Source of the DNA: Alteromonas stellipolaris | Lineage (GTDB): Bacteria; Pseudomonadota; Gammaproteobacteria; Enterobacterales; Alteromonadaceae | Assembly (NCBI RefSeq): GCF_001562115.1 | Contig: NZ_CP013926.1 | Coordinates: 2,480,001 to 2,544,000, forward strand | Length of the DNA stretch: 64,000 nt | Direction of reading: 5' to 3' | Shown here: piece by piece, positions 3,672 through 35,595 of the stretch | Numbering within the stretch: position 1 is the stretch's first letter | How the letters are laid out: each line of letters starts with the position of its first letter | Notes under the pieces: generated by a model | What the model was told of the DNA's origin: nothing | Seen by the model: the letters and a program-made list of their open reading frames with translations, nothing else | Database searches by the model: none | Translations under genes and position numbers: made by a program

Positions 3672-3685
3672 ATTGACCGTTCAAT
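3672..3685. promoter_or_regulatory. BetI/TetR-type operator-like palindrome before the MFS gene
   Basis: The 14-mer ATTGACCGTTCAAT is a near-perfect inverted repeat (ATTGA-N4-TCAAT) ending 18 bases before the MFS start codon. It differs at only one base from the palindrome upstream of betB (35091-35104). The arms resemble the operator recognised by the TetR-family repressor BetI. Binding of BetI itself is inference; another TetR-family repressor could use it. Confidence 0.55.
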
Positions 3686-3703: not shown

Positions 3704-4897
3704 ATGACACAACCAATGCCGTCTAATAAGTTAGCTAAAAATACACTGCTATTAGCCGCAGCTGCCATTGGATTTGCTCAAACCGTTCTGTTCGCTATCT
3801 TAGCGCCGCTGGGTAGAGAAATTGGCCTAATAGAAGTGCAAATTGGTGCCATTATTTCTTGTTCTTCTCTTACGTTATTTTTAATAAGCCCTTTGTGGGG
3901 GCGTGCTAGCGATCGTTGGGGTAGACGAAAAGTACTCTTGATTGGATTGTTTGGCTATTCTGCGGGTACTTTAGTCTTCGCTGGCGTATTCCAAGCTGCA
4001 CTATTAGGCTTTCTAGCCCCTTTAGCCGCGCTTACCTTACTTATCATCACTCGGGTGGGTAATGCCACGGTAATGGCTGCCGTATCGCCGTCAGCAAGCG
4101 CTTATATGGCTGACATCACCACAGTAGAAGAGCGTGTAAAAGGTATGGGCGCATTAGGTGCGGCCACCAATATTGGCTCAATTTTGGGTCCTGCCATTGG
4201 CGGGCTACTGGCCAGTATAAGTTTACTTACGCCACTTTATTTTTCTGTGGGGGTGACAGTAGCTGTTGCAGTATTAGCCATGTTTTCTTTGCCAGTATTG
4301 CCTAGACCTAATCATACTTCATTACCAAAAAAGCTGAAGTACACCGACCCGAGAATATTTCCTTTAATAGTTGCAGGTGTATTGTTGTTTATGGGTTTTG
4401 CTATCGTTCAGCAAACCATAGCCTTTCGGTTTCAAGACACCTTCGCGCTAAACAGTACCGACACCGCTAAAATTGTAGGCTTTAGTTTGATGATCTCTGC
4501 GGCATCAGCCTTGCTGGTTCAAATGCTGCTTATTCCTCGATTAAAGCTGCGGCCTTTCACGTTACTACGGCTTTCAATGCCCATAATGATGGTAGCGTTC
4601 GCTATTTTAGCCTCGGGCGACACTAAATTTCAGTTTATGTCGGCCATGTGCGTATTGGGTTTGGGATTAGGAATAGCGGGCCCAGGCTTTATGGCTGGTG
4701 TATCGGTAGCGGTATCATCAGATGAACAAGGTGCGGTAGCTGGCATCGCTGGTGCTTGCCCACCTTTGGGGTTTGCGGTAGGTCCACTTTTAGGCTCGTA
4801 CCTTTACGCTATAGATGCCTCATTGCCCTACTGGTTCTCGTTCAGCTGTTATTTGTTAGTGTTCTTCTTCACGCTAAAATTTAAAACACGCCATTAA
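3704..4897 (+). CDS. MFS drug/metabolite efflux transporter (397 aa)
   Basis: A 12-helix major facilitator of the DHA1 (TetA/Bcr-like) type, with the motif-A loop GRASDRWGRRKV between helices 2 and 3 (about residues 66-77) and a helix-5 antiporter segment rich in Gly/Pro (NIGSILGPAIGGLLA). The length is standard and the whole chain is hydrophobic. It probably exports small organic compounds by proton antiport; the substrate is not predictable. Its start is preceded at 18 bases by a palindrome almost identical to the putative BetI operator of the betBA cluster, so a TetR-family repressor probably controls it. It does not share a transcript with the OYE gene, whose terminator lies in between. 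Confidence 0.88.
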   Translation: MTQPMPSNKLAKNTLLLAAAAIGFAQTVLFAILAPLGREIGLIEVQIGAIISCSSLTLFLISPLWGRASDRWGRRKVLLIGLFGYSAGTLVFAGVFQAALLGFLAPLAALTLLIITRVGNATVMAAVSPSASAYMADITTVEERVKGMGALGAATNIGSILGPAIGGLLASISLLTPLYFSVGVTVAVAVLAMFSLPVLPRPNHTSLPKKLKYTDPRIFPLIVAGVLLFMGFAIVQQTIAFRFQDTFALNSTDTAKIVGFSLMISAASALLVQMLLIPRLKLRPFTLLRLSMPIMMVAFAILASGDTKFQFMSAMCVLGLGLGIAGPGFMAGVSVAVSSDEQGAVAGIAGACPPLGFAVGPLLGSYLYAIDASLPYWFSFSCYLLVFFFTLKFKTRH

Positions 4898-11572: not shown

Positions 11573-11868
11573 AATGTGTGTTTTCCCTATTAGGTGATTT
11601 TTTATTCTTTGAACTGTGTTTACTTAAAACACTTATCAAAAATATCATTTCTATTAACCCATAAACTAAGATTAATTTCTACTCTAACTATTATTTAATA
11701 CCTAGAACTTTCGTTTAACGCCGTCATATCGCAATTTTAAAAATCAGCCGCTCCCATTAAGGAATCAGTTCTAATAATTACAATCAAAGTTTATAAAAGT
11801 TGTTCCATGCGGTATATTTCAACGTAACAACTCTAATTCGACAGAAAAGAGAAAGGACGAGTACTAGC
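11573..11868. promoter_or_regulatory. Shared upstream region of the divergent TonB receptor and betT
   Basis: About 296 very AT-rich bases between divergent genes, so both promoters lie here. No copy of the ATTGA-N4-TCAAT palindrome seen at 3672 and 35091 is present, and no Fur box. Specific operators cannot be assigned by eye. Confidence 0.4.
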
Positions 11869-13839
11869 GTGAGCGAAACTGAGACCACATCACCCTTAAA
11901 CAAACCCGTGTTTTACACATCTTCTATAATTATAGCCTGCCTGCTCATTTTTGCAGCAGCCTTGCCTGAAACTGCGGATTCACTTTTCAAGACTATTCAA
12001 GACGTCATTGTGACAAATGGCAGTTGGTTCTATGTACTTACGGTAGCAATTGTACTGTTATTTGTGGTTTATCTGGGCATGTCTCGCTATGGCGAGATTA
12101 AGCTAGGCCCCGACCACGCCGTACCAGAATTTAAGTTCACTACTTGGTTATCTATGCTGTTTGCTGCCGGAATGGGTATTGGGCTTATGTTTTTTGGCGT
12201 TGCCGAGCCCCTAATGCACTTTTTAGCACCACCGACTGCACAGGCTGAAAGTATTGATGCTGTGCGCGAAGCAATGAAAACCACCTTTTTCCATTGGGGT
12301 GTTCATGCTTGGGCAATTTATGCTGTGGTGGCTTTAATATTGGCCTATTTTGCGTATCGCCAGAACCTACCACTAACGCTGCGCTCTGCGCTTTATCCGC
12401 TAATTGGCGACAGAATTTACGGCTGGCCTGGTCATGTTGTCGATATTTTTGCGGTTACTTCTACCGTATTTGGTGTTTCAACATCACTAGGCTTAGGTGC
12501 ATCACAAGTTAATGCCGGCTTCAATTACTTATTCGGCTTGCCTTCAAATACCACCGTTCAAATTATGATTATGGCGGGGGTTATTGGTTTAGCCGTCATC
12601 TCTGTGGCAACTGGGTTAGATAAAGGCATTCGTATTTTGTCTGAAACCAACATGGTTTTAGCCATTTTACTGCTTCTTATTGTTCTAATATTAGGGCCAA
12701 CAGTATTCTTGCTTCAAGCCTACATGCAAAATACGGGGGCTTACCTATCTGATTTAGTTAGAAATACCTTCAACTTATTCGCCTATGACAAAACCGATTG
12801 GATTGGTGGCTGGACCATCTTTTATTGGGGCTGGTGGTTAGCATGGGCACCATTCGTAGGTCTGTTCATTGCACGTATCTCATACGGCCGTAGCATTCGT
12901 GAATTCATCATGGGCGTATTACTTATCCCTTCTGCCTTCACGCTTTTCTGGATGACCGTTTTTGGTAATGGCGCCATCGACCAAGTGTTAGTACATGGTA
13001 AGGATATATTAGCCACCATGGTCAACGAGGATAGTGCAGTCGCCCTATTCGTGTTCTTAGAGCAGTTCCCATTCTCGTCGATATTAAGCTTTATTGCCGT
13101 CATAATGGTGATAGTGTTCTTTGTAACATCGTGCGATTCTGGCGCAATGGTAGTAGACATGCTTTGTTCACATGGTAGAAACGACACGCCATTGTGGCAG
13201 CGAATTTACTGGGCCGTTGGTGTTGGTGTGGTAAGTGCCGTTTTACTTTATGCTGGTGGTTTGGGGGCACTTCAAACCATGACAATTGCCTCGGCGCTGC
13301 CCTTCGCAATCGTGTTGCTTATAGCGATTGCAGGACTATTGAAAGCACTACGAGTAGAAGCGTATAAACGTGAAAGCTTACAAGTGCTAGCCGGTACGCC
13401 GCAGCATAACGATGGCGATAAGAACTGGAAAGACCGATTAGAAAACATTGTGACTATCCCAGATGAAAATGCCGTTAGACGCTATATGCAAAAAATTGTT
13501 AAGCCTGCCATGTCTGAAGTAGGTAAAGAGTTTGAAACTCAGCAATTTGAAATTTTGATTGATGAAACCGATGAATCGCTAATGCTAACGGTAACCATGG
13601 GTAGCGACCCTGATTTTGTATACGCAGTATACCCATCTGCCACTCATCAGCCAGAATTTGGTCCAAGTGAGCTACAAGAGGTAGACGAAGGCGAAAAGCC
13701 AACGTACTATCGCGCAGAAGTTCATTTAAGTGAAGGTGGTCAGAACTACGATATTATGGGATGGTCGAAAATCTCAGTGATTAATGACGTAATTGATCAG
13801 TTTCAGAAGCATCAACACTTTATCCATTTGCTTAAGTAG
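11869..13839 (+). CDS. betT: BCCT-family choline/betaine transporter, BetT type (656 aa)
   Basis: A secondary transporter of quaternary amines in the inner membrane, normally proton- or sodium-coupled. Twelve helices are followed by a long hydrophilic C-terminal domain (about the last 140 residues) as in Escherichia coli BetT (677 aa). Family signatures are GMGIGLMFFGVAEP (helix 3), the aromatic box segment WTIFYWGWWLAWAPFVG, and VTSCDSGAMVVD. I prefer the GTG at 11869 (AAAGGA upstream, product beginning VSETETTS). The ATG at 11800 would add 23 residues and has no ribosome-binding site. Some BCCT members carry betaine, carnitine or DMSP, so choline specificity is inferred from length and the C-terminal domain. 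A MarR gene follows after 34 bases. Confidence 0.88.
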   Translation: MSETETTSPLNKPVFYTSSIIIACLLIFAAALPETADSLFKTIQDVIVTNGSWFYVLTVAIVLLFVVYLGMSRYGEIKLGPDHAVPEFKFTTWLSMLFAAGMGIGLMFFGVAEPLMHFLAPPTAQAESIDAVREAMKTTFFHWGVHAWAIYAVVALILAYFAYRQNLPLTLRSALYPLIGDRIYGWPGHVVDIFAVTSTVFGVSTSLGLGASQVNAGFNYLFGLPSNTTVQIMIMAGVIGLAVISVATGLDKGIRILSETNMVLAILLLLIVLILGPTVFLLQAYMQNTGAYLSDLVRNTFNLFAYDKTDWIGGWTIFYWGWWLAWAPFVGLFIARISYGRSIREFIMGVLLIPSAFTLFWMTVFGNGAIDQVLVHGKDILATMVNEDSAVALFVFLEQFPFSSILSFIAVIMVIVFFVTSCDSGAMVVDMLCSHGRNDTPLWQRIYWAVGVGVVSAVLLYAGGLGALQTMTIASALPFAIVLLIAIAGLLKALRVEAYKRESLQVLAGTPQHNDGDKNWKDRLENIVTIPDENAVRRYMQKIVKPAMSEVGKEFETQQFEILIDETDESLMLTVTMGSDPDFVYAVYPSATHQPEFGPSELQEVDEGEKPTYYRAEVHLSEGGQNYDIMGWSKISVINDVIDQFQKHQHFIHLLK

Positions 13840-24007: not shown

Positions 24008-25333
24008 ATGAAATATCTATCAATATTACTCGCAGGTATAATCACAAGCACGGTAGCACATTGCGAAGATTGGGATAATATTCCACTTCCAACTTCTCCT
24101 GGTGGTGGCAAAGTTTGGCAACTTCAAACCCAATATTCCGACTCTTTTAATTACATTGGAAAACCAAGCGATTTTACCGATAAATGGAACGACAGCTATT
24201 TTAATAACTGGACAGGACCAGGTTTAACCTACTGGTCAAGTAATGAATCTTGGGTTGCTAATGGCAACCTAATTATCAGTGCCTCACGCAGACAAGGCAC
24301 AAACCAGGTCAACGCTGGTGTTATTACTTCTAAAACCAAAGTTAAATTTCCAATTTATTTAGAGGCAAGAATAAAAGTTAGCAATTTGGAACTCTCCTCA
24401 AATTTTTGGTTATTAAGTCAAAACGATGAACGAGAAATAGACATTCTAGAGGTATACGGCGGTGCTGCAGACACCTGGTTTGCCAAAAACATGTCAACCA
24501 ACTTTCATGTTTTCTTGCGGGACGAACAAACCAACCAAATTATTAGCGACTTTAATGACCAAACCCATAACATACCCTCAACTGGCACCTATTGGCGCGA
24601 TCAATTTCATCGCTTTGGGGCGTATTGGAAAAGCCCCACCGAAGTAACTTTCTATATCGACGGCCAGCAAACGCCAGATGGTTCGTGGGCACAGGTTGTT
24701 ATGAAAGATAAAGATTACACTGGCGCAACTTTGGATAAATCGCAATACAACATGGATCAAGAAGCCTTCATTATTATCGATACCGAGGATCATGATTGGC
24801 GCTCTAACCAAGGCATAGTTGCTTCTGATGCTGAACTTGCAGATGGTTCCAAAAACAAAATGTATGTGGACTGGATCCGCGTTTATAAACCGGTTGACGG
24901 AGTGGTGACTGGCAACACAAACTTGCAAGCTAAACATTCTGGTCGCTGTATCGACGTTGCCCAAGGCGCTATGATTAATGGCAGTCAGTATCAGCAATGG
25001 ACCTGTGATACCACAAACACAAACCAGAGCTTCAAATTTATTTCCGCTGGCAACAATGAGTATTTAATTCAATCAACGCAAAGTAATTTGTGTGTTGAAC
25101 TGAAAGATAACAACTCGGCAAATGGCGCAAATATTCATCAATGGGTATGTAACAGTGCAAATGACAATCAAAAGTGGACGCTACACGATAAAGGAGATCA
25201 ACACTTCGAGATCCGAAGTAAAGTCACAGGTAAGTGCATTGACGTGGCCGGAAAAGCAACTACTAACGGTGCAAACATAGTTCAGTGGAGCTGCTATAAC
25301 GGCCAAAATCAGAGATTTAAATTTTTACAATAA
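24008..25333 (+). CDS. Secreted GH16 beta-agarase with C-terminal ricin-type lectin domain (441 aa)
   Basis: A signal peptide (residues 1-19) precedes a glycoside hydrolase family 16 domain (about 20-297). It closely follows beta-agarases such as AgaA/DagA: WNDSYFNNWTGPGLTYW, IYLEARIKVSNLELSSNFWLL, the catalytic EIDILE (nucleophile E143, D145, acid/base E148) and VDWIRVYKP closing the fold. It would cut beta-1,4 bonds of agarose outside the cell. The remaining 140 residues form a ricin/CBM13 beta-trefoil with three QW-type repeats (QQW at about 331, HQW at 379, VQW at 427) and cysteine pairs. This domain should bind polysaccharide. A terminator follows. Porphyranase or another GH16 specificity is possible, but the start of the mature protein (DWDNIPLP) is agarase-like. 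Confidence 0.92.
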   Translation: MKYLSILLAGIITSTVAHCEDWDNIPLPTSPGGGKVWQLQTQYSDSFNYIGKPSDFTDKWNDSYFNNWTGPGLTYWSSNESWVANGNLIISASRRQGTNQVNAGVITSKTKVKFPIYLEARIKVSNLELSSNFWLLSQNDEREIDILEVYGGAADTWFAKNMSTNFHVFLRDEQTNQIISDFNDQTHNIPSTGTYWRDQFHRFGAYWKSPTEVTFYIDGQQTPDGSWAQVVMKDKDYTGATLDKSQYNMDQEAFIIIDTEDHDWRSNQGIVASDAELADGSKNKMYVDWIRVYKPVDGVVTGNTNLQAKHSGRCIDVAQGAMINGSQYQQWTCDTTNTNQSFKFISAGNNEYLIQSTQSNLCVELKDNNSANGANIHQWVCNSANDNQKWTLHDKGDQHFEIRSKVTGKCIDVAGKATTNGANIVQWSCYNGQNQRFKFLQ

Positions 25334-25405: not shown

Positions 25406-27727
25406 CTAAAACTGGCTCTCATCAACCAACTTAAGCCAAATGGGGTTGGTGTAGGCTTTGCGGCCTTCGTTATCTTCTACGATTAGCGCTACCCAGCCAG
25501 AAGCTTGTGGTACTTTAAAGCTAACGTAATCGTGATCTCCAGTTAGTTTTTTATCTTCAAGCACTACGCTGTTCACGGCACTTTGCTTATTGGTAGCGGT
25601 AGTTGTGGCTGTGCTATCACTACCAATCAACTGCACAGACTTAAGCCCATTTACCGCCACCAAATCGAAACTGATCGTCTGTGCTTGTGCCTTTGCAAGC
25701 TTCAATGTATTGCCAAACATGACGTTTTTTGGGTAAATCACAGGGCCAAAAGATACATAAGAATGACCATCTTTCGCGGCTTGCGCGAAGGCATTCGCAT
25801 CAGGCTTACTGCCGGTATATACAAATAGCCTGTTTAATCCACTGGTTTGATTTAATACATCATGAGTATCTGAACCTGCAGTAAAGTAGTACGGTAATCC
25901 TTCATTCCAAAACTGATGCGCTTTGTTAACGGTTGGCTCATTATTTACTACCGCATTTAGTTCGAATAAATCAATGCTAGGGTTAAATCCCCCTGGCGCT
26001 GAGCCTTTATCCAAACTGCTTAAATAGCCATAAGGTATGTAGGGGTGATTTGAAGCAATTACAGTAGCCCCCATACGGCGAACATCTTCAATAATACTGT
26101 GTATATCATCTACGCCTGGATCAACCGTTAATTGCGCCCCACTATCTATGGGAAAAGCGTTAAAGTGGCCCCAAGAAGGCGACACTTCAATAGACGGTAT
26201 AAAGGGTACATTGCGCGTATCGGCCAGTGTTTGAATGGTGTCGTTGTTTTTAGTGGAATCATGATCGCTAACAAACAGCACGTTTAAACCAGCCGCTAAT
26301 TGAGAACGTACCAAATTTTTCGGGTTAGTTGACCCTTCTAACACATCGGCATGATGATGCAGGTCGCCTGCGTACCAACCGTGCTTCGTTGGATAGGTTT
26401 TAACATCAATAGCACTTGCTACGGTTGTTGTTTTATTTGCATCAACACTTGCCGCTATTATCGTACTTTTGGCATTAAAGCCCGCTCCATGTGAAACGCC
26501 TAATTCGTATTCCCCCGGCGCCAAACCAAATACGGCATTGCCGATATTATCAAGGTCAGTGAAAAAGGTTCGCGCCCCTAAATATTCGATGAGTGGTTGG
26601 TTGCCCTGCTCTATCGTAATTTTTGCATCTATGGGCTGCTGACTTTTCTCATCGGTAATATCAAGGCTTATTTTGCCGGGCGCGCGAAGCGCATCGAATG
26701 AAAGTGTTTGGGTCACGTTTTCTTCAACTGTAATCAGGCGCGTTTTACTGTCTGAATGTTGTTTGCCTGTAGCGTAAACTTCGTAATCTCCTACCGGCAG
26801 CGTGAATGCCACATTCTTGCCATCACCCATCGCCCACATATAAGGCACGCCATTTTGCGACACGACAATAGCGGCTTGTTCTACGGCTTGCCCTTCCTGA
26901 GTACTTATGTGTGCTTGAATTGTTCCGCTTTTTAACCCTTTACGTTTTATTTCGGCGCTAACAACGGCCGCTAAGTTACCGCGAGGCAATACCTGGTAAT
27001 CACCCGAGAACGTCATACTTTGTGACGGGCTCAGTATATGTGCCGCGTATAAATCACGTGACTGGTTTTTAGTTTCACGCATATAAGGTGCGTGCAATGC
27101 AATCGCCCATTCTTCGTCGTAACCTACGAAACGGTCTGATAACCACCTATTTTCCAATGGTTTATCGATGGTGTGATTACGAGGAACAGCGAATTTATAT
27201 CCGGAATCTGGCCATAAGGTATAGCCTGAAAGCAATGCTAAATCGCTATCGCCCTTATTGGTCATGGTGGTTTCAACACGAATAAGGTCTGAGCCCTCAA
27301 AAAGGCGGTAGGTAGTACTTATTTCAGTTTCGCCAAAGTCTCTTTTAATGTTAACCGCAGCTTCTTCAGCCGTGTCTTTGAGAATATCAATTTTGGTGTA
27401 AGTATTGGGCCAGCTAGACCAGTTATTTGGAATGAAATCGGCAAAAGCAACGCGGTCGTTACTTAAAGTGCCATCAGCTTTCACATTAGCAATATCAACT
27501 ATACACCCTCTTGCTACGCCCCAAGGCGGCGCTGAATCTACTGCAATAGCAAATGCCAATTTATCGTTTTGAATGGTTAAATCTTGATTAGAAGTAGCAT
27601 TTCCATGCGGAATTGCCGTTTTGCCTTTTGTGATACTAACCGAGGCATGACCTGCATGAGATAAAAGACTCCCCGATACCAGTAATGTGATGCCCAATAA
27701 TGCAGGGTTAAGCGTCGAAAACTTCAT
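25406..27727 (-). CDS. Periplasmic CehA/McbA-family PHP metallohydrolase (773 aa)
   Basis: A signal peptide (about residues 1-29) sends it to the periplasm. Residues about 30-440 are beta-rich, including two carboxypeptidase-regulatory-like modules (about 267-345 and 350-440). The C-terminal catalytic PHP domain (about 448-773) shows the metal ligands in order: DLHHHAD (455-461), SDHD (487-490), E514, H521, NHP (560-562) and GSDTH (618-622). This matches CehA/McbA-type hydrolases, known for ester and carbamate cleavage, while other PHP proteins are phosphoesterases. It lies just behind a TonB receptor of the bet cluster, so release of choline from an ester or phosphodiester is a reasonable idea. 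A terminator separates it from the receptor, so it probably has its own promoter. Confidence 0.87.
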   Translation of the reverse strand: MKFSTLNPALLGITLLVSGSLLSHAGHASVSITKGKTAIPHGNATSNQDLTIQNDKLAFAIAVDSAPPWGVARGCIVDIANVKADGTLSNDRVAFADFIPNNWSSWPNTYTKIDILKDTAEEAAVNIKRDFGETEISTTYRLFEGSDLIRVETTMTNKGDSDLALLSGYTLWPDSGYKFAVPRNHTIDKPLENRWLSDRFVGYDEEWAIALHAPYMRETKNQSRDLYAAHILSPSQSMTFSGDYQVLPRGNLAAVVSAEIKRKGLKSGTIQAHISTQEGQAVEQAAIVVSQNGVPYMWAMGDGKNVAFTLPVGDYEVYATGKQHSDSKTRLITVEENVTQTLSFDALRAPGKISLDITDEKSQQPIDAKITIEQGNQPLIEYLGARTFFTDLDNIGNAVFGLAPGEYELGVSHGAGFNAKSTIIAASVDANKTTTVASAIDVKTYPTKHGWYAGDLHHHADVLEGSTNPKNLVRSQLAAGLNVLFVSDHDSTKNNDTIQTLADTRNVPFIPSIEVSPSWGHFNAFPIDSGAQLTVDPGVDDIHSIIEDVRRMGATVIASNHPYIPYGYLSSLDKGSAPGGFNPSIDLFELNAVVNNEPTVNKAHQFWNEGLPYYFTAGSDTHDVLNQTSGLNRLFVYTGSKPDANAFAQAAKDGHSYVSFGPVIYPKNVMFGNTLKLAKAQAQTISFDLVAVNGLKSVQLIGSDSTATTTATNKQSAVNSVVLEDKKLTGDHDYVSFKVPQASGWVALIVEDNEGRKAYTNPIWLKLVDESQF

Positions 27728-27822
27728 AGAAACACCTTATATGGTAATAACAAGTCGCTTTTGTAAATTGAGTAAGTAGAAAAATAATAGATCTGAAGAG
27801 CGAAAACATGTGGTAGCAATTG

Positions 27823-27860
27823 AAAAAAAGCCGCAACCAGAATGTCTGATTGCGGCTTTG
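27823..27860 (-). terminator. Strong terminator after the 785-aa TonB receptor gene
   Basis: On the minus strand a stem of about 16 bp, beginning AAAGCCGCAATCAGA and closing TCTGGTTGCGGCTTT with one G-T pair, has a 3-base loop and seven T. It lies between the receptor stop and the metallohydrolase start. Confidence 0.93.
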
Positions 27861-27897
27861 TCTATTGTATTACATAGCTCTAATTACGCAGTGCTAA

Positions 27898-30255
27898 TTA
27901 CATAGCAACACGAACATTGAAAGAAGCGATGCGAGGGGCACCAATCCATCCAGCGTTTGCGGCAATAGAACCAAGATAGTCTTCGTCAAACACATTGTTT
28001 ACCGTAAAGCTTAGCTCTACGCTATCAATGCCGCCGCCAATATCGTAAGCCGTTTTACCTAGATACAGGTCACTAACAATGTAAGAGTCAGTTTCTTGTG
28101 TATTAGCTTGGTCTAAGAAACGCTCGCCTACATATTTTGTGCTAAAGCCAGCGTAGAAATCACCTTTAGTATAGTCAAAACTAACCACAGCCATGTCTTC
28201 TGGCGAGCCTATTACGGTGTTACCGCTAACGCCTTCGTCGGTGTAAGTAGAGTCGTTTTTAGTATAAGAAACATATATACTTAATGAATCGGTAATGCTG
28301 TAATCAATTGAGGCTTCAATACCGTCAGATTCAATACCACCGTCATTGATATAGCCGCCTGCAGCAGATTCTAAGAAGTCGATGCCATTTACATCTTCGT
28401 TGCTAACAAAGGTGATGCGGTTTTCAAATTCAATCGTGTAATACGTTAAGCTTGCATTAAAACCAGGTGTTGAGTAGCGTAAACCGAAATCGATATTGTC
28501 TGCAGTTTCGGGCTCTACAGTACTGATATCAGTATCGTCACGCTCTAATACAGCATCTTTAACCGCTGCAAAGTTCTCTGCATAACCACCGAAAAGCTCT
28601 AAACCGTTAACCGGTAGTGGTGCAACGAAACCAGCTGAAATAAGTACATCAGAATCAGACGATATGTCTAAGTTGTTTTCAGGTGTGAATTGGTCTTCTT
28701 TAGACACATCAACATTGAACTGTTTTGCACCTAAACGAATTTTAGCGAATCCTGCATCAAGTTCGTTTTCAACATAGTACATCAATGTTTCAACCGGAAA
28801 CTCTCGGTCGTACTGAACCCAATAAGGGGTGTTCTCATAACGAGCGCTCGTTGAAGCATCGATAGTCTTGTGCCAATCGCGGTATTCGTCACGCTGATAA
28901 TCTTCATACCAAAAACCACCTCGCACTACGTTGTCCATGTCGGCAATAGTTGTGTTCCATACGAAGTCACCGTTAATACCAATGCGCTTCTTATTATAAT
29001 GTGTATGGCGATTAGAGCTTACTGCAATAGCGCCTTGCTCATAACAATTTGGATCAACTTCAGCGCCGCCGCCACCATAAGGTGAACTGATTGAACTAAC
29101 ACAGCCATCAATTGGCGATAACGCTTCACCAGCGCTGTTCACAAAGTAGATTAAACCTTGTGACGCACCGCCAAAAGCAGTAGTAGACGAATCTAATTCA
29201 GAGTTTGCATTACCTGCGCCGTCATCGGTTACATCAGCAATGTAGTATGGGTTCCACTTACCCGTACCTTCGTTTTCGTGATAATAAACGTTAGTACTAA
29301 AATCGACACTTCCCACTGAGAAATCGGCTTTTAGATAGGTGAAGAAGTTCTCGCGCTCGGTAACCCATCCTCCACGATAAACCTGATCTTGATATGGAAT
29401 GCCAGACCAACTTTCGGTTAATCCATCCCAATCAGGGTTTTGAGCATACTGTGCCAATCCATAAACACGCTGATAAGTGAATTCTTGTGCATCGTCATAA
29501 CTCACGTAGCCGGTAAGGTCTACTTCACCTACTGTGCTAATGATTTTACCTTCTAAATGATCACGGGTATTAGTCACTGACCCATCCATATAATCATCAT
29601 TTTGCTGAGTAGATAATGAAAGCCATGCAAACGTATCTGGTGCAATCTCACCCGTGTCATAACGAACGTAAATTTTACTGGCGTTGTATTCTGCAAACGT
29701 TGTACTTACTGTTAATTGCTCGTCCAGCGCAGGTCTAATGGTAGTGAAATCCATTGTTCCGCCAAGGGCTTCATTTGAGCGCGAACTAATATCAGCGGTA
29801 CCTTGAGAAACGACAGTGCCACGTAAGTTTTCGGTATCAATATAGCGGCTGGCTTTAGTACCACCACCATAATTCGAGTTACCGTTGGCAATGCCATCTA
29901 CGGTCATCCCGATTTGCTGAGAGTCTAGGTTAACCTGAAAACCACGAATTGAAATCGTAGTAGACCATTCATCAGAACCAAATGGGTCGCCTTCAGTGAC
30001 CAATACACCTGGCAAATTGTCGATAAGCGCCAATGCGCTAGTCATCGGGGTCTGTTGCTTTTTCATTTCTGTTGACGTTGCACTATTAGCGTATGAAACA
30101 TTACGCCCAGTCACTAATATTGATTCAACATCTTTGTCTTCTTCAGCGGCTTTAGCTTCAGCTTCTTGAGCAAGCGCATGCATTGATGTTAGTGACATCG
30201 CAGCAAGTACAGACAAAGTTATAAAACTTCGTTTTTTTGGCACATAAGTGTTCAT
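27898..30255 (-). CDS. TonB-dependent outer-membrane receptor of the bet cluster (785 aa)
   Basis: A signal peptide (about residues 1-29, ending MHALA) precedes a short charged spacer, the TonB box SILVTGRNV (about 45-53), a plug (about 60-190, with ALALIDNLPGVLVTEGD, ISIRGFQVNLDSQQIGMTVDGI and a Gly-rich GNSNYGGGTKASRYI loop) and a barrel ending in ASFNVRVAM. GGGAG stands before the ATG. The gene follows the short BCCT transporter by 70 bases, with betA and betB further upstream, all in the same direction and without a visible terminator between them. This suggests that the receptor imports a choline- or betaine-related compound. No Fur box is seen, which argues against a siderophore. Ligand identity is inference. 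Confidence 0.9.
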   Translation of the reverse strand: MNTYVPKKRSFITLSVLAAMSLTSMHALAQEAEAKAAEEDKDVESILVTGRNVSYANSATSTEMKKQQTPMTSALALIDNLPGVLVTEGDPFGSDEWSTTISIRGFQVNLDSQQIGMTVDGIANGNSNYGGGTKASRYIDTENLRGTVVSQGTADISSRSNEALGGTMDFTTIRPALDEQLTVSTTFAEYNASKIYVRYDTGEIAPDTFAWLSLSTQQNDDYMDGSVTNTRDHLEGKIISTVGEVDLTGYVSYDDAQEFTYQRVYGLAQYAQNPDWDGLTESWSGIPYQDQVYRGGWVTERENFFTYLKADFSVGSVDFSTNVYYHENEGTGKWNPYYIADVTDDGAGNANSELDSSTTAFGGASQGLIYFVNSAGEALSPIDGCVSSISSPYGGGGAEVDPNCYEQGAIAVSSNRHTHYNKKRIGINGDFVWNTTIADMDNVVRGGFWYEDYQRDEYRDWHKTIDASTSARYENTPYWVQYDREFPVETLMYYVENELDAGFAKIRLGAKQFNVDVSKEDQFTPENNLDISSDSDVLISAGFVAPLPVNGLELFGGYAENFAAVKDAVLERDDTDISTVEPETADNIDFGLRYSTPGFNASLTYYTIEFENRITFVSNEDVNGIDFLESAAGGYINDGGIESDGIEASIDYSITDSLSIYVSYTKNDSTYTDEGVSGNTVIGSPEDMAVVSFDYTKGDFYAGFSTKYVGERFLDQANTQETDSYIVSDLYLGKTAYDIGGGIDSVELSFTVNNVFDEDYLGSIAANAGWIGAPRIASFNVRVAM

Positions 30256-30325
30256 AAAACTCCCGTTGAGTATTGTGTTTTATTTTCTGTTATTAGATAG
30301 ATAGTGATGTTTTTATTTGAGGCTC

Positions 30326-31543
30326 TTACGGCCCTGAATCTATTTTTGTAAAATCGATTTCGTTGTCTTTAGGAGAACTATCGATATTTCTTACCGTTTT
30401 CGGCTTACGGTACAGCATGAAAAACGCGCAGCTGAAAAACAGGCCGATGACTAATGCACCTACCCACTGAATTTGTAAAAACTCTAACTTGAAAAGCAAT
30501 GTAAGCAAGGAAAGCATGGCGACATTCATGGCAATATATTTCAATTTACCAAAGCGCTTTACCGTTAAATTGAGGTTGTCTGTATACAGGCGAATAAGCG
30601 AATCTAGGGAGTTAATAACAAATACAATTCCTACGAAGGCCATCGCAAAATTTTTCAAACCTGTAGTGGGTATACCTGCCTCGTGATATTGATAAATAAC
30701 ACTGAACCACACAGCAATAGGTATTGATGGAAATATCAGCATGGCGCCTAGCACTTGATAGGTGCGTAAGCCACCCACAAAACGCGAGGTAAACTGCCCA
30801 ATCATGATGCTCCATGCGAACCACCAAAATAAATAAAACTCGTGGTAGTCGTTTAGCGGCAATACAAAGTGTTCTATATTTCCAAAGTAACTGCCTATCA
30901 GCTCTAAATTATGCGTAAAAGCAGCAATTTGACTGTCGCTCCCCAAGAACGCTCCAGCCCACATAAAGCCAATCAACGCGATAAACAACCATGTGGTAGA
31001 GATGCTCAATAACCGCACATATTTAATGTCGGTACTGGAATAAACCGCAAAGCAGATAGCCGCAAACACGATAAAATAAAAAGTAGGTATGATGGACTCG
31101 CCATCGCCGATAGCCGGTAAGTACCATGGCAAATTCGATAACAGTAAAAACGCCGTAAATGCACAAGTGCCTATAATCACTACGTTATTAATGAATTTAA
31201 CCAAAGGTATTTCAAAAAACTTAACCTTGGGCTCTACCACGCAAAAATAAAAACAGGTAAGAAAGTAAAAGCCCCATATTAGAAAGCCCCAGTAACCAAA
31301 CTCAATGGCAATTGGGTTAGTAAAAGCGTATTCAGGGTTCGCTGTTATGTTCTCATAACCACCGAACTCGGTAAGCGGAAACATGATTAGGCCAACGTCT
31401 AGGCCTGAGGTAAATAGGATAGCAATGAAGGTGAAAAGTCTTACCGGTGTTACACCAATACACTTCACATTTCCCCATTTCGCGAGAATAACCACAATGG
31501 CCAATAGGGTGAAAATGATCCCAGCATTAAGCCATAAGGTCAT
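30326..31543 (-). CDS. Short, divergent BCCT-type transporter (405 aa)
   Basis: A membrane protein with about 11-12 helices. Two regions align by eye with BCCT signatures of the BetT protein in this window. TSGLDVGLIMFPLTEFGG (45-62) stands for the Gly-rich helix-3 motif. FYLFWWFAWSIMIGQFTSRFVGG (236-258) stands for the tryptophan-box segment, though the canonical WT-x-FYWGWW is altered. NSLDSLIRL (311-319) matches the CDSG region. It is about 100-250 residues shorter than known BCCT carriers and lacks their long C-terminal domain. The start has a strong GGGGAGG site. Located between betA and a TonB receptor, it probably takes up choline or a related amine. Confidence 0.75.
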   Translation of the reverse strand: MTLWLNAGIIFTLLAIVVILAKWGNVKCIGVTPVRLFTFIAILFTSGLDVGLIMFPLTEFGGYENITANPEYAFTNPIAIEFGYWGFLIWGFYFLTCFYFCVVEPKVKFFEIPLVKFINNVVIIGTCAFTAFLLLSNLPWYLPAIGDGESIIPTFYFIVFAAICFAVYSSTDIKYVRLLSISTTWLFIALIGFMWAGAFLGSDSQIAAFTHNLELIGSYFGNIEHFVLPLNDYHEFYLFWWFAWSIMIGQFTSRFVGGLRTYQVLGAMLIFPSIPIAVWFSVIYQYHEAGIPTTGLKNFAMAFVGIVFVINSLDSLIRLYTDNLNLTVKRFGKLKYIAMNVAMLSLLTLLFKLEFLQIQWVGALVIGLFFSCAFFMLYRKPKTVRNIDSSPKDNEIDFTKIDSGP

Positions 31544-31646
31544 TACTACCTCCCCAAAACAAACGATAATGCTTCATCTTTCTTCCTGTTGTTATATTTT
31601 TCATACGTACCAAAAATGCCTTTTGGGTACGTGTAAGCCGTTCAGG

Positions 31647-33317
31647 TTAAATGGTTGAATTGCGCTGAACCGTTTCCCAATTAGCAGATGTAGTAACGCT
31701 AACCGGTGAATGGGCTAACGCTGGCTTGCCAAGAATTAAATCTGCCGCTTTTTCGGCCACCATAATGGTAGGCGCGTTTAAGTTGCCGTTAGGTACTGTG
31801 GGAAAAATTGAAGAATCCACCACACGTAAGCGCTCAACACCATGAACTTGCGTCTTGGAATTCACTACCGCCATGGCATCTTCACCCATTTTGCACGAGC
31901 AAGACGGGTGATAAGCGCTTTCTACCGCTTGGCGCACAAAAGCGTCGATTTCTTCATCGGTTTGAACATGCTTACCAGGTTGAATTTCATCTTCTCGGTA
32001 ATCGTCAAACGCACTTTGTTCAATAATTTCACGGGTTAAGCGCACGCAGGCACGAAAGCCTTCAATGTCGTCTTGATGCTGCAAGTAATTAAACTGAATT
32101 TTGGGTGCGTCGGTTGGGTTAGCCGTTTTAATGGTAACGGCACCGCGGCTTTTAGGCTTGTTGTGACCAACATGCACCTGAAAACCATGGCCATCAAAGG
32201 CACTGCGCCCGTCGTAACGCATAGCCGCTGGTAAGAAGTGATATTGAATATCAGGCCATTCAACACCCGGCTTCGAGCGAATAAACGCACAAGACTCAAA
32301 GTGATTGGTAGCCCCTAACCCTTTGCGGGTAAACATCCAACGTGCACCAATAAGACCTTTTGAAATGAGCCCTAATTTACCATTAAGCGTAATGGGCTGT
32401 TTGCACTTGTATTGGAAGTAGAACTCTAAGTGATCTTGTAGGTTCTGCCCTACCCCTGGCAAATGGTGCTTAACGTCAACGCCTGCTGCTTTTAGAGTGT
32501 CGCTGTCGCCAATACCAGAAAGCTGTAATAGATGCGGCGAGCCAATAGAGCCAGCGCTTAGCACCACTTCTTTATTGGCTGTTACTGTAACGCTCTTACC
32601 ATTTACGCTGTACTGCACACCTACTGCTTTTTTGCCCTCAAGCAATACTTTTTCAGCCAGAGCACCAGTAACAAGCGTAAGATTTTTACGGGATTTAACT
32701 GGATCTAAATATTCGCGACTTGCCGAGCTACGCACGCCGTCTTTCACGGTCATGTGCATGGGGCCGAAGCCTTCTTGCTGAGCGGCGTTATAGTCAGCCG
32801 TTGCGGCATAACCCGCTTCTTGACCCGCTTCTATAAAGGCGGTGTATAAAGGGTTGGCCATTTCGTTGCCATTGTTAACCCCTAATGGGCCCATTCCACC
32901 ACGATAATCATCTTTACCTAAATAAAAAGACTCGGCTTTTTGAAAATAAGGTAAACAAGCTTGGTAATTCCAGCCTTGTGCACCGTGTTCTTCCCATTCA
33001 TCGAAATCTTTTGCATGGCCGCGAACGTACACCATACCGTTAATAGATGAAGACCCACCTAATACCTTACCTCGAGGGCAATGCATTTTACGGTTATCTA
33101 GAAACGGCTCTTCTTCAGTGTGAAACTGCCATGCATATTTGTCGCTATTCATGGGTATAGACAATGCCGTGGGCATTTTAATGAAAATGCTTTTATCACT
33201 GCCGCCGGTTTCTAGCAAAAGTACGCTATTGTTTGCGTCTTCTGATAGTCGGTTAGCTAACACACACCCCGCAGAGCCAGCACCTACTATGATGAAATCA
33301 TATGACTGTATACTCAT
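31647..33317 (-). CDS. betA: Choline dehydrogenase BetA (556 aa)
   Basis: An FAD enzyme of the GMC family, membrane-associated, oxidising choline to betaine aldehyde (and partly further). Visible features: the FAD-binding [20 protein letters not shown] (about 6-25), GMC signature 1 [18 protein letters not shown] (about 83-100), signature 2 [15 protein letters not shown], and the catalytic-histidine segment [12 protein letters not shown] near residue 470. The length equals that of Escherichia coli BetA. Its ATG overlaps the betB stop by one base (TAATG), so the two are translationally coupled. It is followed by a BCCT-type transporter and a TonB receptor on the same strand. Other alcohol substrates are possible within GMC enzymes, but the pairing with betB makes choline very likely. 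Confidence 0.95.
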
Positions 33318-34780
33318 TAAAACGGGCTCTCTATGTCAGTTATGCCCACGTATACTGATTTGGTCTGTGTGTAGTGATCTAGCGTTTCAATACCATTTTC
33401 ACGGCCAATGCCCGATTGCTTATAGCCGCCCACAGGCATTTCAGCCGGCGAATTACCATAGCTGTTTATCCAGCAAATACCCGCTTGAAGCTTATGGATA
33501 ACACGGTGTGCTCGTTTAATATCTTTGGTAAACACACCCGCAGCCAAGCCTAAATGAGTATTGTTAGCACGCTGAATAACATCGGCTTCATCTTCAAACA
33601 CCAATACACTCATGACTGGGCCAAAGATTTCTTCTTTAACAATAGTCATATCGTCTGTGCAATCGGTGAATACAGTAGGCGCTACAAAGTAGCCGTTTGG
33701 CGCAGATTCTGGGCTTAGTGTTGTGCCGCCTGTTAGCACAGTAGCGCCTTCTTCTACACCTTTGTTGATGTAGCTCATCACTAGGTCTTGATGAGTTTTA
33801 GAAATAAGCGCGCCTAAATTTACGTTAGGATCGAGCGGGTCGCCTGCAATTATGTTTTCTTCAGTACGGGTTTTAAGTTCGTCTATAAACGCTTGGTATA
33901 CCGATTTATGTACGTACACTCGTGTGCAGTTTGTGCAAACTTCACCTTGGGTATAGAAGTTACCCAACATGGCTGCGCTAACCGCTTGCGATACGTCGGC
34001 GTCTTCAAACACCAACAATGGCGATTTACCGCCAAGTTCCATGGTTACGTCTTTTAACGAGCCTGCTGCGCTAGCCACTACCTTTTTGCCTGTACCGACT
34101 TCACCAGTAAAAGACACTTTTTCAATATCAGGGCTTTGAGTTAACCATTGGCCTACCTCTGCTGCACCTTGTACAACATTAAACACGCCCGCTGGTACGC
34201 CCGCTTCAAAGAAAATTTCAGCCAGTTTAATGGCTCCTAATGGTGTTTCTTCTGAAGGTTTAAATATTAATGCGTTGCCTGCCGCTAATGCAGGGCCAGA
34301 TTTCCAGCACGCAATTTGTAATGGATAGTTCCACGCGCCAATACCTGCACAAATGCCAAGAGGCTCTTTGCGTGTGTAGTAGAAATCTTCGCCTACCATC
34401 TGCTGTTGCCCTACTTGTGTAGGAGCCAGGCCAGCAAAGTACTCAATGACATCAGCACCGGTAACAACATCAACACATTCGGCTTCTTGCCAAGGCTTAC
34501 CGGTATCTAGCACTTCAATTTTAGCCAACTCATCATTACGTTCGCGAAGTAACGCTACTGCTTTTAATAGAATACGGCTGCGCTCTACCGGTGTCATAGC
34601 AGACCAAGTAGCAAAGCCTTCTTTTGCGCTTGCTATTGCCGCCTGTTGAACAGCATCATCTGCCACTTCAACGTGATAAATAACTTCGTCGGTAGCGGGG
34701 TTTTTAACCGCAAATGTTTCGCCGCTTTTATTGGCAATGAATTGGCCATGAATAAAATTTTGATAAACCGGGGTCGTCAC
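33317..34780 (-). CDS. betB: Betaine aldehyde dehydrogenase BetB (487 aa)
   Basis: An NAD(P)-dependent aldehyde dehydrogenase making glycine betaine, the second step of the choline pathway, in the cytoplasm. Motifs: [21 protein letters not shown] (cofactor fold), [12 protein letters not shown], the general-base MELGGKSPL, the nucleophile in [13 protein letters not shown], and the C-terminal [16 protein letters not shown] choose the GTG at 34780 (AGG about 8 bases before). It gives 487 residues beginning MTTPVYQNF, the length of known BetB proteins. The ATG at 34891 would add 37 residues without family resemblance. It is the first gene of the bet operon, about 310 bases downstream of a BetI-like operator. 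No betI gene is adjacent. Confidence 0.95.
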
Positions 34781-35595
34781 ATTAAAACCTATTTTGATAA
34801 CTGTCAGCAGATTAGAACTCGCTAACATTGTCCAATTTACTTCGTCAGGCGTGCTTACTGCCTTACGCAGACCTGAGCGCTCGAATAACACACATACCGT
34901 TTGATTAACGTCTTGAATCCGTTATTTATGCTTAAAACGTTCACAGATAGCGTTTTCACCGAAGTCTACAAATACGTTGAACCCCTTATATAACTGCCAA
35001 TCGAAACTTCAATTCAAGAAGCGGTTCTATTCAGTATTGAAGACTAAAGAAGATATTCAACTCTATCTGAGTAATGTGTATTTTTTATTAATTGATCGTT
35101 CAATAAAAATAAATACTAAGGTAATAACACTAATAATTCAACGTTGACAAAGGCTGAATTTGCATAAAAATGATTTGAACTAAATCTAAGGAGCTTTGTT
35201 TGCGCCCAAAAGGAATGGTTAAAATAAATACAATTAGCTGTTTTATTGACTAATTTCTTTCAGTTTAGTTTTATTTGTGTACGATTTTGAAGGGTGGTTG
35301 TACTAGCCAATAAGAACACTCACTTTTTAGAATTACCGATTAGATAGAACACGAACAATTTTTTACACTAAGCACTAATTTATGGTCAGATTATAAAACA
35401 ACCAAATAAATTTGTGGAAATCAGCGTTAATTGCTTAATTAGATAGACAGAATTATTTCCTTCGAATGGTTTCAAAGTATAATAGCGCCCTATGAGGGCG
35501 ATATAATCCGTAGTATTGCTCGTGACAAAACCAAACTAGTGCATACTTTCGTAAGAAGCGGTAACACTGTGATGAATAAGGCGAAAATTACCTAA
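34781..35595. other. Long intergenic region upstream of betB
   Basis: About 815 AT-rich bases between divergent genes. The only clear element is the BetI-like palindrome and its overlapping promoter at 35070-35104, which implies a betB leader of roughly 280 bases. I recognise no riboswitch fold and no ORF with a ribosome-binding site in it. Confidence 0.5.
35070..35104 (-). promoter_or_regulatory. BetI-like operator overlapping a probable betBA promoter
   Basis: The palindrome ATTGATCGTTCAAT lies at 35091-35104. On the minus strand it supplies a TTGAAC -35 box, followed after exactly 17 bases by TACACA as a weak -10 (about 35075-35080). A repressor on this site would block the promoter. The same 14-mer, with one difference, occurs at 3672-3685. 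The sequence fits the BetI operator type as I recall it. The regulator itself is not encoded in this window. Confidence 0.65.

Follow-up and report, generated by a model that had tools for sequence, protein, structure and literature searches.

A choline-to-glycine-betaine gene cluster of Alteromonas stellipolaris with a TonB-dependent receptor as candidate importer of choline phosphoesters

Why should the genes that turn choline into glycine betaine be followed by a TonB-dependent receptor and a secreted hydrolase? The question is raised by a locus of Alteromonas stellipolaris lying in a 64,000-nucleotide stretch of DNA (the window; G000:C1:2480001-2544000 of a 4.9 Mb genome), in which betB, betA, a short transporter of the BCCT family, the receptor and a CehA/McbA-type PHP metallohydrolase are grouped on the minus strand. 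The initial annotation had assembled these five genes, all of which were found in place, into a candidate 'full' choline-scavenging unit; the five components are there, but betI is encoded elsewhere in the genome. It had also remarked that the layout exceeds that of the bet operon: the extension proved to be real and recurrent and, for the receptor, functionally coherent. We propose that the locus is a choline-to-glycine-betaine operon endowed with its own outer-membrane importer, whose ligand would be a choline phosphoester or phosphodiester, a reading that we hold to have somewhat better than even chances.

The case for the receptor comes from the company it keeps in other genomes. Its family has 78 copies in 67 genomes (196 genomes of the bacterial family were searched). 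Linkage was scored, after application of E-value cut-offs, on 78 receptor, 57 short-BCCT, 10 hydrolase, 76 PhoD and 53 BetI rows (two PhoD rows were left out as second fragments of counted genes, and two of the BetI rows lie under the model's cut-off, one of them being a fragment); genes were called near when at most 12 kb apart on the same contig, and contig ends conceal some links. A short BCCT gene lies within 12 kb of 12 of the 13 receptor copies sharing at least 75% identity. These close copies join two different bet blocks, whose BCCT proteins are about 91% or about 60% identical to that of the window, and they do so on different sides. Over all 78 copies, a PhoD-like gene is near 51, BetI 25, a short BCCT 19 and the hydrolase 6, while every one of the 53 BetI rows is near a receptor (25) or a short BCCT (46). 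Like the family assignments, gene orders, linkage and operator boxes, the receptor tree was computed directly. It places the window's copy in a group of 20 members, 19 of which have a BetI-type box or bet linkage, and the 'choline' state changes at least six times over 68 receptors; note that the tree was quickly built and had long branches flagged, and that the 'choline' label includes gene linkage and thus overlaps the linkage counts.

The second line of evidence concerns BetI-type operators. There is no betI in the cluster, nor any between 34780 and 35596. At E ≤ 1e-40, TIGR03384 has a single match in the genome (G000:C1:2262357-2262890), which stands beside a receptor paralog, 63% identical to the window's receptor; the two genes together span G000:C1:2262357-2265365 and are preceded by a BetI-type box (G000:C1:2265460-2265473). 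The same receptor-betI pair, box included, is found in the congeners G031 and G458. The three nearest relatives of the window (L005-L007) also lack betI and keep the operator-like box. A ATTGAACGTTCAAT-type palindrome lies ahead of 76 of 79 leading betI genes, and it resembles the footprinted BetI1 site of Ruegeria, reported as the palindrome ATTGACG-CGTCAAT (PMC12442346).

We then asked how often this box, scored as at least 12 of 14 matching positions, precedes receptor genes. The upstream set comprised the window and L098-L177, filtered at a coverage of at least 0.75 and an identity of at least 37%, which left 63 receptors once near-copies were dropped; it omits the receptors that failed the filter and some family copies whose loci were not retrieved. 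The box was found upstream of 23 of these 63 genes compared to 6 of 480 unrelated background genes (p = 1.5e-18), and scrambled palindromes precede at most one receptor. Receptors with a betI neighbour have the box in 18 of 19 cases, the exception being L136, and five more are boxed without an adjoining betI. The 40 receptors without a box include L136 and the window's own, both of which lie inside a bet operon, where a box is not expected. One further BetI-type box, ATTGAACGGTCAAT, was seen on the minus strand at 3672-3685 of the window, ending 18 bases ahead of an MFS transporter gene (3704-4897) for which tetracycline-efflux models score best among curated ones, each of them well below its cut-off; it may be a further BetI target or a chance occurrence.

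The boxes and the bet linkage also bear on what the receptor carries. By family models alone it might pass for an importer of siderophores or metals, for instance of iron for PhoD, with an indirect link to choline. Its barrel domain is over cut-off (Table 1); the plug model (PF07715) finds no match in it or in L014 and passes its cut-off in the other seven of the nine family members scanned, including the 85% relative L008. The best curated and solved-structure matches, all partial, are siderophore and FecA receptors, and PhoD enzymes need iron (PMC4223295). However, the siderophore and FecA models score far below their cut-offs (116 vs 223.5 and 55 vs 1100), the window's genome yielded no PhoD partner at 1e-40, and iron import leaves the BetI-type boxes and the bet linkage aside. 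We regard this explanation as very unlikely.

What, then, distinguishes a phosphate-linked choline compound from choline itself? In relatives, the partners of the receptor belong to phosphoesterase families: on representatives, Pfam identified PhoD-like proteins (PF09423, over cut-off) and type I phosphodiesterases (PDE; PF01663), the best PDB match of the PDE sequence having an E-value of 0.36. One or both adjoin 50 of the 63 receptors, and a receptor is nearby for 51 of the 54 best-scoring PhoD rows versus none of the 22 weaker ones. The arrangements recur: bet genes, receptor and hydrolase in the window and L005-L010; receptor-PhoD-betI-betB-betA-BCCT in L098 and L118-L122; the same order preceded by the hydrolase in L014 and L035; an unbroken run receptor-PDE-PhoD-betI-betB-betA-BCCT in L123; and BCCT-betI divergent from receptor-(PDE)-PhoD in L114 and L126-L130. 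As an observation apart, the receptor gene of Paraglaciecola sp. MB-3u-78 (L022:11751-16694) is split by what looks by eye like a transposase gene and is accompanied by a short PhoD-like gene and then a second betI.

Some receptors appear to be under phosphate control instead. A Pho-box-like repeat, scored against an assumed consensus of the E. coli type, precedes 16 of the 40 receptors without a BetI box compared to 15 of 480 background genes (p = 9e-12), and 3 of the 23 with one. Repeat spacings other than 4 gave 1, 3, 2 and 5 of 40, and 15 of 36 remained when rows with upstreams at least 50% identical (ungapped) were removed; however, scrambled consensus sequences reached up to 27.5% of the 40 (mean 5%), against the 40% observed. 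The strongest of these sites, with 12 or 13 of 14 positions, lie ahead of receptors L151, L158, L116 and L171, none of which has a BetI box. Since the receptors would be controlled either by choline or by phosphate, a choline phosphoester suggests itself as the ligand. A broader version, in which one family of receptors for intact choline phosphoesters has moved repeatedly between the BetI and PhoB regulons, with PDE, PhoD and PHP hydrolases as interchangeable partners, strikes us as possible but doubtful.

The genes betB, betA and short BCCT make up a bet block of a common kind. BetA passes two curated cut-offs (TIGR01810, Table 1; NF002550, 920 for 605); BetB is over the cut-off of NF009725 and falls 0.6 bit short of that of TIGR01804 (668 vs 668.6). 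The two genes are adjacent and co-directional with a one-base overlap at 33317, and betB is given a GTG start; its open reading frame extends up to 34891, farther upstream than the start of the match to the BetB model. The initial annotation had the short BCCT protein replace BetT-type uptake, which the window itself contradicts: a full-length BetT gene, ending about 11.6 kb short of the cluster, lies on the opposite strand. We therefore dropped the short BCCT as a BetT substitute; it is the usual partner of betBA, both genes lying directly upstream of it in all 80 loci analysed (the best 80 of 585 relatives, the top three being from Alteromonas strains), with betI ahead of betB in 74. Nor is it a new type of transporter, as 3328 relatives were found among 7999 candidates scored, several of them named choline or BCCT transporters by their sources. 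It only just exceeds its Pfam cut-off, but its residues 21-346 align to the BetT encoded in this window (probability 57%, E = 1e-4), with W85/W90/Y93 and W240/W241/W244 coinciding with the aromatic motifs of BetT transmembrane segments TM4 and TM8; all six residues are invariant in 38 sequences. In Vibrio BCCT proteins, according to the study from which the TM numbers are taken, the pocket for glycine betaine is lined by aromatic side chains of TM4 and TM8 (PMC7876524). The hydropathy profile has 10 peaks, against the 12 transmembrane helices of BCCT transporters; the predicted model (AF2) was unusable, with a predicted local distance difference test score (pLDDT) of 47.

The gene that follows the short BCCT is for a TorF-family putative porin in 69 of the 80 loci, the receptor in 8 and neither in 3 (the family call, TIGR02001, was checked on L012, at L012:11251-11958; the 68 other loci are among L005-L084). 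This suggests that a gene for an outer-membrane protein is a frequent part of bet operons, and since the porin usually follows the short BCCT, the receptor holds another outer-membrane protein's slot. That position, together with the fact that BetI-type control and bet linkage require only choline, leaves some room for a phosphate-free ligand, be it trace free choline, choline-O-sulfate or a betaine. Against such a ligand stand the PhoD and PDE genes beside most receptors (50/63) and the Pho-box-like sites in relatives, and we consider it improbable. Among the conjugates put forward by the initial annotation (ester, phosphodiester or sulfate), the phosphoester is thus favoured; choline-O-sulfate as first-choice ligand was set aside, since the choline-sulfatase model TIGR03417 matched nothing in the window's genome at E ≤ 1e-20 and reached its cut-off in 0 of 16 genomes.

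The hydrolase is the weaker half of the proposal that a choline conjugate is imported and cut. It belongs to the CehA/McbA family (NF038032, 251 for a cut-off of 80) and has a PHP phosphoesterase-like fold; its His/Asp/Glu set is invariant in 55 sequences, and from the fold these residues would build the metal site. Its Foldseek matches, among the 50 listed, are mostly to the beta domain and have low TM-scores. Six of its 10 copies adjoin a receptor and five are near a short BCCT. Within the receptor group of at least 75% identity, six copies are accompanied by the hydrolase, six by PhoD, none by both and one by neither. The intrinsic terminator that the initial annotation had placed at 27823-27860 was confirmed (Table 1), and a strong hairpin occupies the receptor/hydrolase gap in all eight loci examined that have the order receptor then hydrolase (the window, L005-L010 and L099), although in L005 and L006 the T run is not perfect. 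No Pho box was found upstream of the window's hydrolase, where the best site scores 9 of 14.

We infer the ligand, the substrate of the hydrolase, the direction of flux and the regulation by BetI, which would combine as follows. The TonB receptor would bring a choline phosphoester or phosphodiester into the periplasm, candidates being glycerophosphocholine, lysophosphatidylcholine and a phosphocholine-bearing glycan. A periplasmic hydrolase would then free the choline: the PHP enzyme here, the type I phosphodiesterase and/or the PhoD-like protein in relatives. Choline would enter the cell through the short BCCT protein, alongside BetT, to be oxidised to glycine betaine by BetA and BetB. BetI, encoded beside the receptor paralog, would act on the box ahead of betB and keep the cluster repressed as long as choline is absent. 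Within the broader, two-regulon reading, the mutarotase-like N-terminal domain of the hydrolase would allow for a glycan decorated with phosphocholine as ligand, and the glpT neighbour of one hydrolase homolog for glycerophosphocholine. This lone homolog, of 45% identity (G465, L178), adjoins the gene of the glycerol-3-phosphate transporter GlpT (TIGR00712, 739 for 633), beyond which lies a glycerol-3-phosphate dehydrogenase fragment (L178:5490-9812).

Several observations weigh against this scheme, besides the scrambled controls and the assumed consensus of the Pho-box scan. A short BCCT is near only 19 of the 78 receptors and BetI near only 25, and a bet link exists for 5 of the 34 receptor relatives at 51-65% identity. 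The co-occurrence of receptor and bet genes, by which the initial annotation proposed to judge the grouping, stood among the close copies but not throughout the wider family, receptor and short BCCT not being within 12 kb of each other in 17 of the 36 genomes having both. Such distances would fit a coincidental grouping; yet the linkage of 12 of 13 close copies, the recurring arrangements and the excess of boxes (23/63 vs 6/480) make coincidence barely credible. In addition, a search of the window's genome for relatives of the partner enzymes (PhoD at 1e-40, PDE at 1e-20) found none, so that the enzymatic step falls here to the PHP protein alone. Four of the 10 hydrolase copies (L103, L137, L178 and L179) are away from a receptor and show no choline genes, although one shows glpT, and a BetI box precedes none of 17 leading hydrolase copies, the best single site being 11 of 14 (L008).

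These last points raise the possibility that the receptor serves choline scavenging while the hydrolase acts on some other substrate and is a mere passenger. The passenger view is favoured by the incomplete association with the receptor (6/10), by the terminator lying between the two genes in 8 of 8 loci examined, by the lack of a BetI box in the 17 leading copies and by the copy of L101, which sits between M6 metalloprotease and catalase-peroxidase genes. By contrast, the hydrolase is found on either side of the receptor (after it in the window, L005-L010 and L099, before it in L014 and L035), and the pair persists about 615 kb from the bet genes in G031, where it has a 12/14 box. Moreover, none of the close receptor copies has both hydrolase and PhoD, although the two occur together in L014 and L035, and glpT stands beside one lone homolog. 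We take the passenger view seriously, at a little under even chances. As for import and cleavage of a conjugate, the receptor half is well backed by bet linkage, boxes and phosphatase/phosphodiesterase partners; the hydrolase half is weaker, the enzyme being a plausible though unproven partner.

The component families are each known, and the combination of TonB receptor, BetI-type box and phosphoesterases was not found in the open-licence literature searched; likewise, none of the titles and abstract openings listed from open-licence PubMed Central names a TonB receptor in connection with bet genes or with phosphoesters of choline. The cluster shares with the betIBA-betT operon of the Escherichia coli type, as laid out in PMC7876524, betA and betB of curated level, a BetI-type box and a BCCT carrier, but betI is elsewhere, the carrier is the short BCCT, and receptor and hydrolase are added. 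The choline-O-sulfate systems of Ruegeria, with two BetI proteins, similarly place a conjugate-cleaving gene set under BetI; they use betC, for choline-O-sulfate, rather than a PHP hydrolase or the PhoD/PDE of relatives, and the available text contains neither 'TonB' nor 'outer membrane' (PMC12442346). Phospholipid head-group catabolism in Phaeobacter resembles the proposed route in that phosphocholine is cut extracellularly, taken up as choline by BetT and oxidised by BetA/BetB, and differs in that PhoX contributes the cleavage, 'TonB' being absent from the text available (PMC10132767). The PhoD family takes in a phospholipase D of Streptomyces chromofuscus (PMC4223295); the receptor's partners pass its PF09423 cut-off but are short forms of 344-366 aa, none of them beside the window's receptor. 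Finally, the CehA/McbA carbamate hydrolases share the NF038032 family and, in one carbofuran degrader, a TonB receptor lies upstream of cehA; the substrates named for them are carbamates, with no tie to choline seen in the accessible portion (PMC8292978).

Table 1. Positions, in the window, of the genes and sites of the choline cluster, with BetT for context.
Feature	Position	Strand	Description
CehA/McbA-type PHP metallohydrolase, secreted	25406..27727	-	773 aa; mutarotase-like beta domain (N-terminal), CarboxypepD_reg-like domain, PHP domain (C-terminal)
Intrinsic terminator, receptor/hydrolase gap	27827..27859	-	stem of 15 pairs, then T run
TonB-dependent receptor	27898..30255	-	785 aa; PF00593 82 > 27; linkage, tree
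Short BCCT transporter (probable choline carrier)	30326..31543	-	405 aa; PF02028 28.8 > 27
betA, choline dehydrogenase	31647..33317	-	TIGR01810 796 > 732
betB, betaine aldehyde dehydrogenase	33317..34780	-	GTG start; NF009725 839 > 593
BetI-type operator (putative), ATTGAACGATCAAT	35091..35104	-	about 310 bp upstream of betB; 13/14 to ATTGAACGTTCAAT
Full-length BetT (context, outside the cluster)	11800..13839	+	NF007399 718 > 695

Next to the hydrolase gene, 24008-25333 of the window encodes a secreted protein that ends in a ricin-B-type lectin domain and whose N-terminal part, by eye only, resembles a polysaccharide hydrolase. Its CDtoxinA match overlaps the lectin fold and was not read as the sign of a toxin.

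Plankton commonly contains phosphocholine lipids and the products of their breakdown. If the ligand of the receptor is phosphate-linked choline, it may be a source of both osmoprotectant and phosphorus, and the receptor family, which present curated models match only in part and as siderophore-like, would gain a substrate class. An energised route devoted to such uptake would link osmoprotectant supply with marine phosphorus recycling. Should the two-regulon reading also be true, one and the same compound would serve some species as a supply of osmoprotectant and others as a supply of phosphorus.

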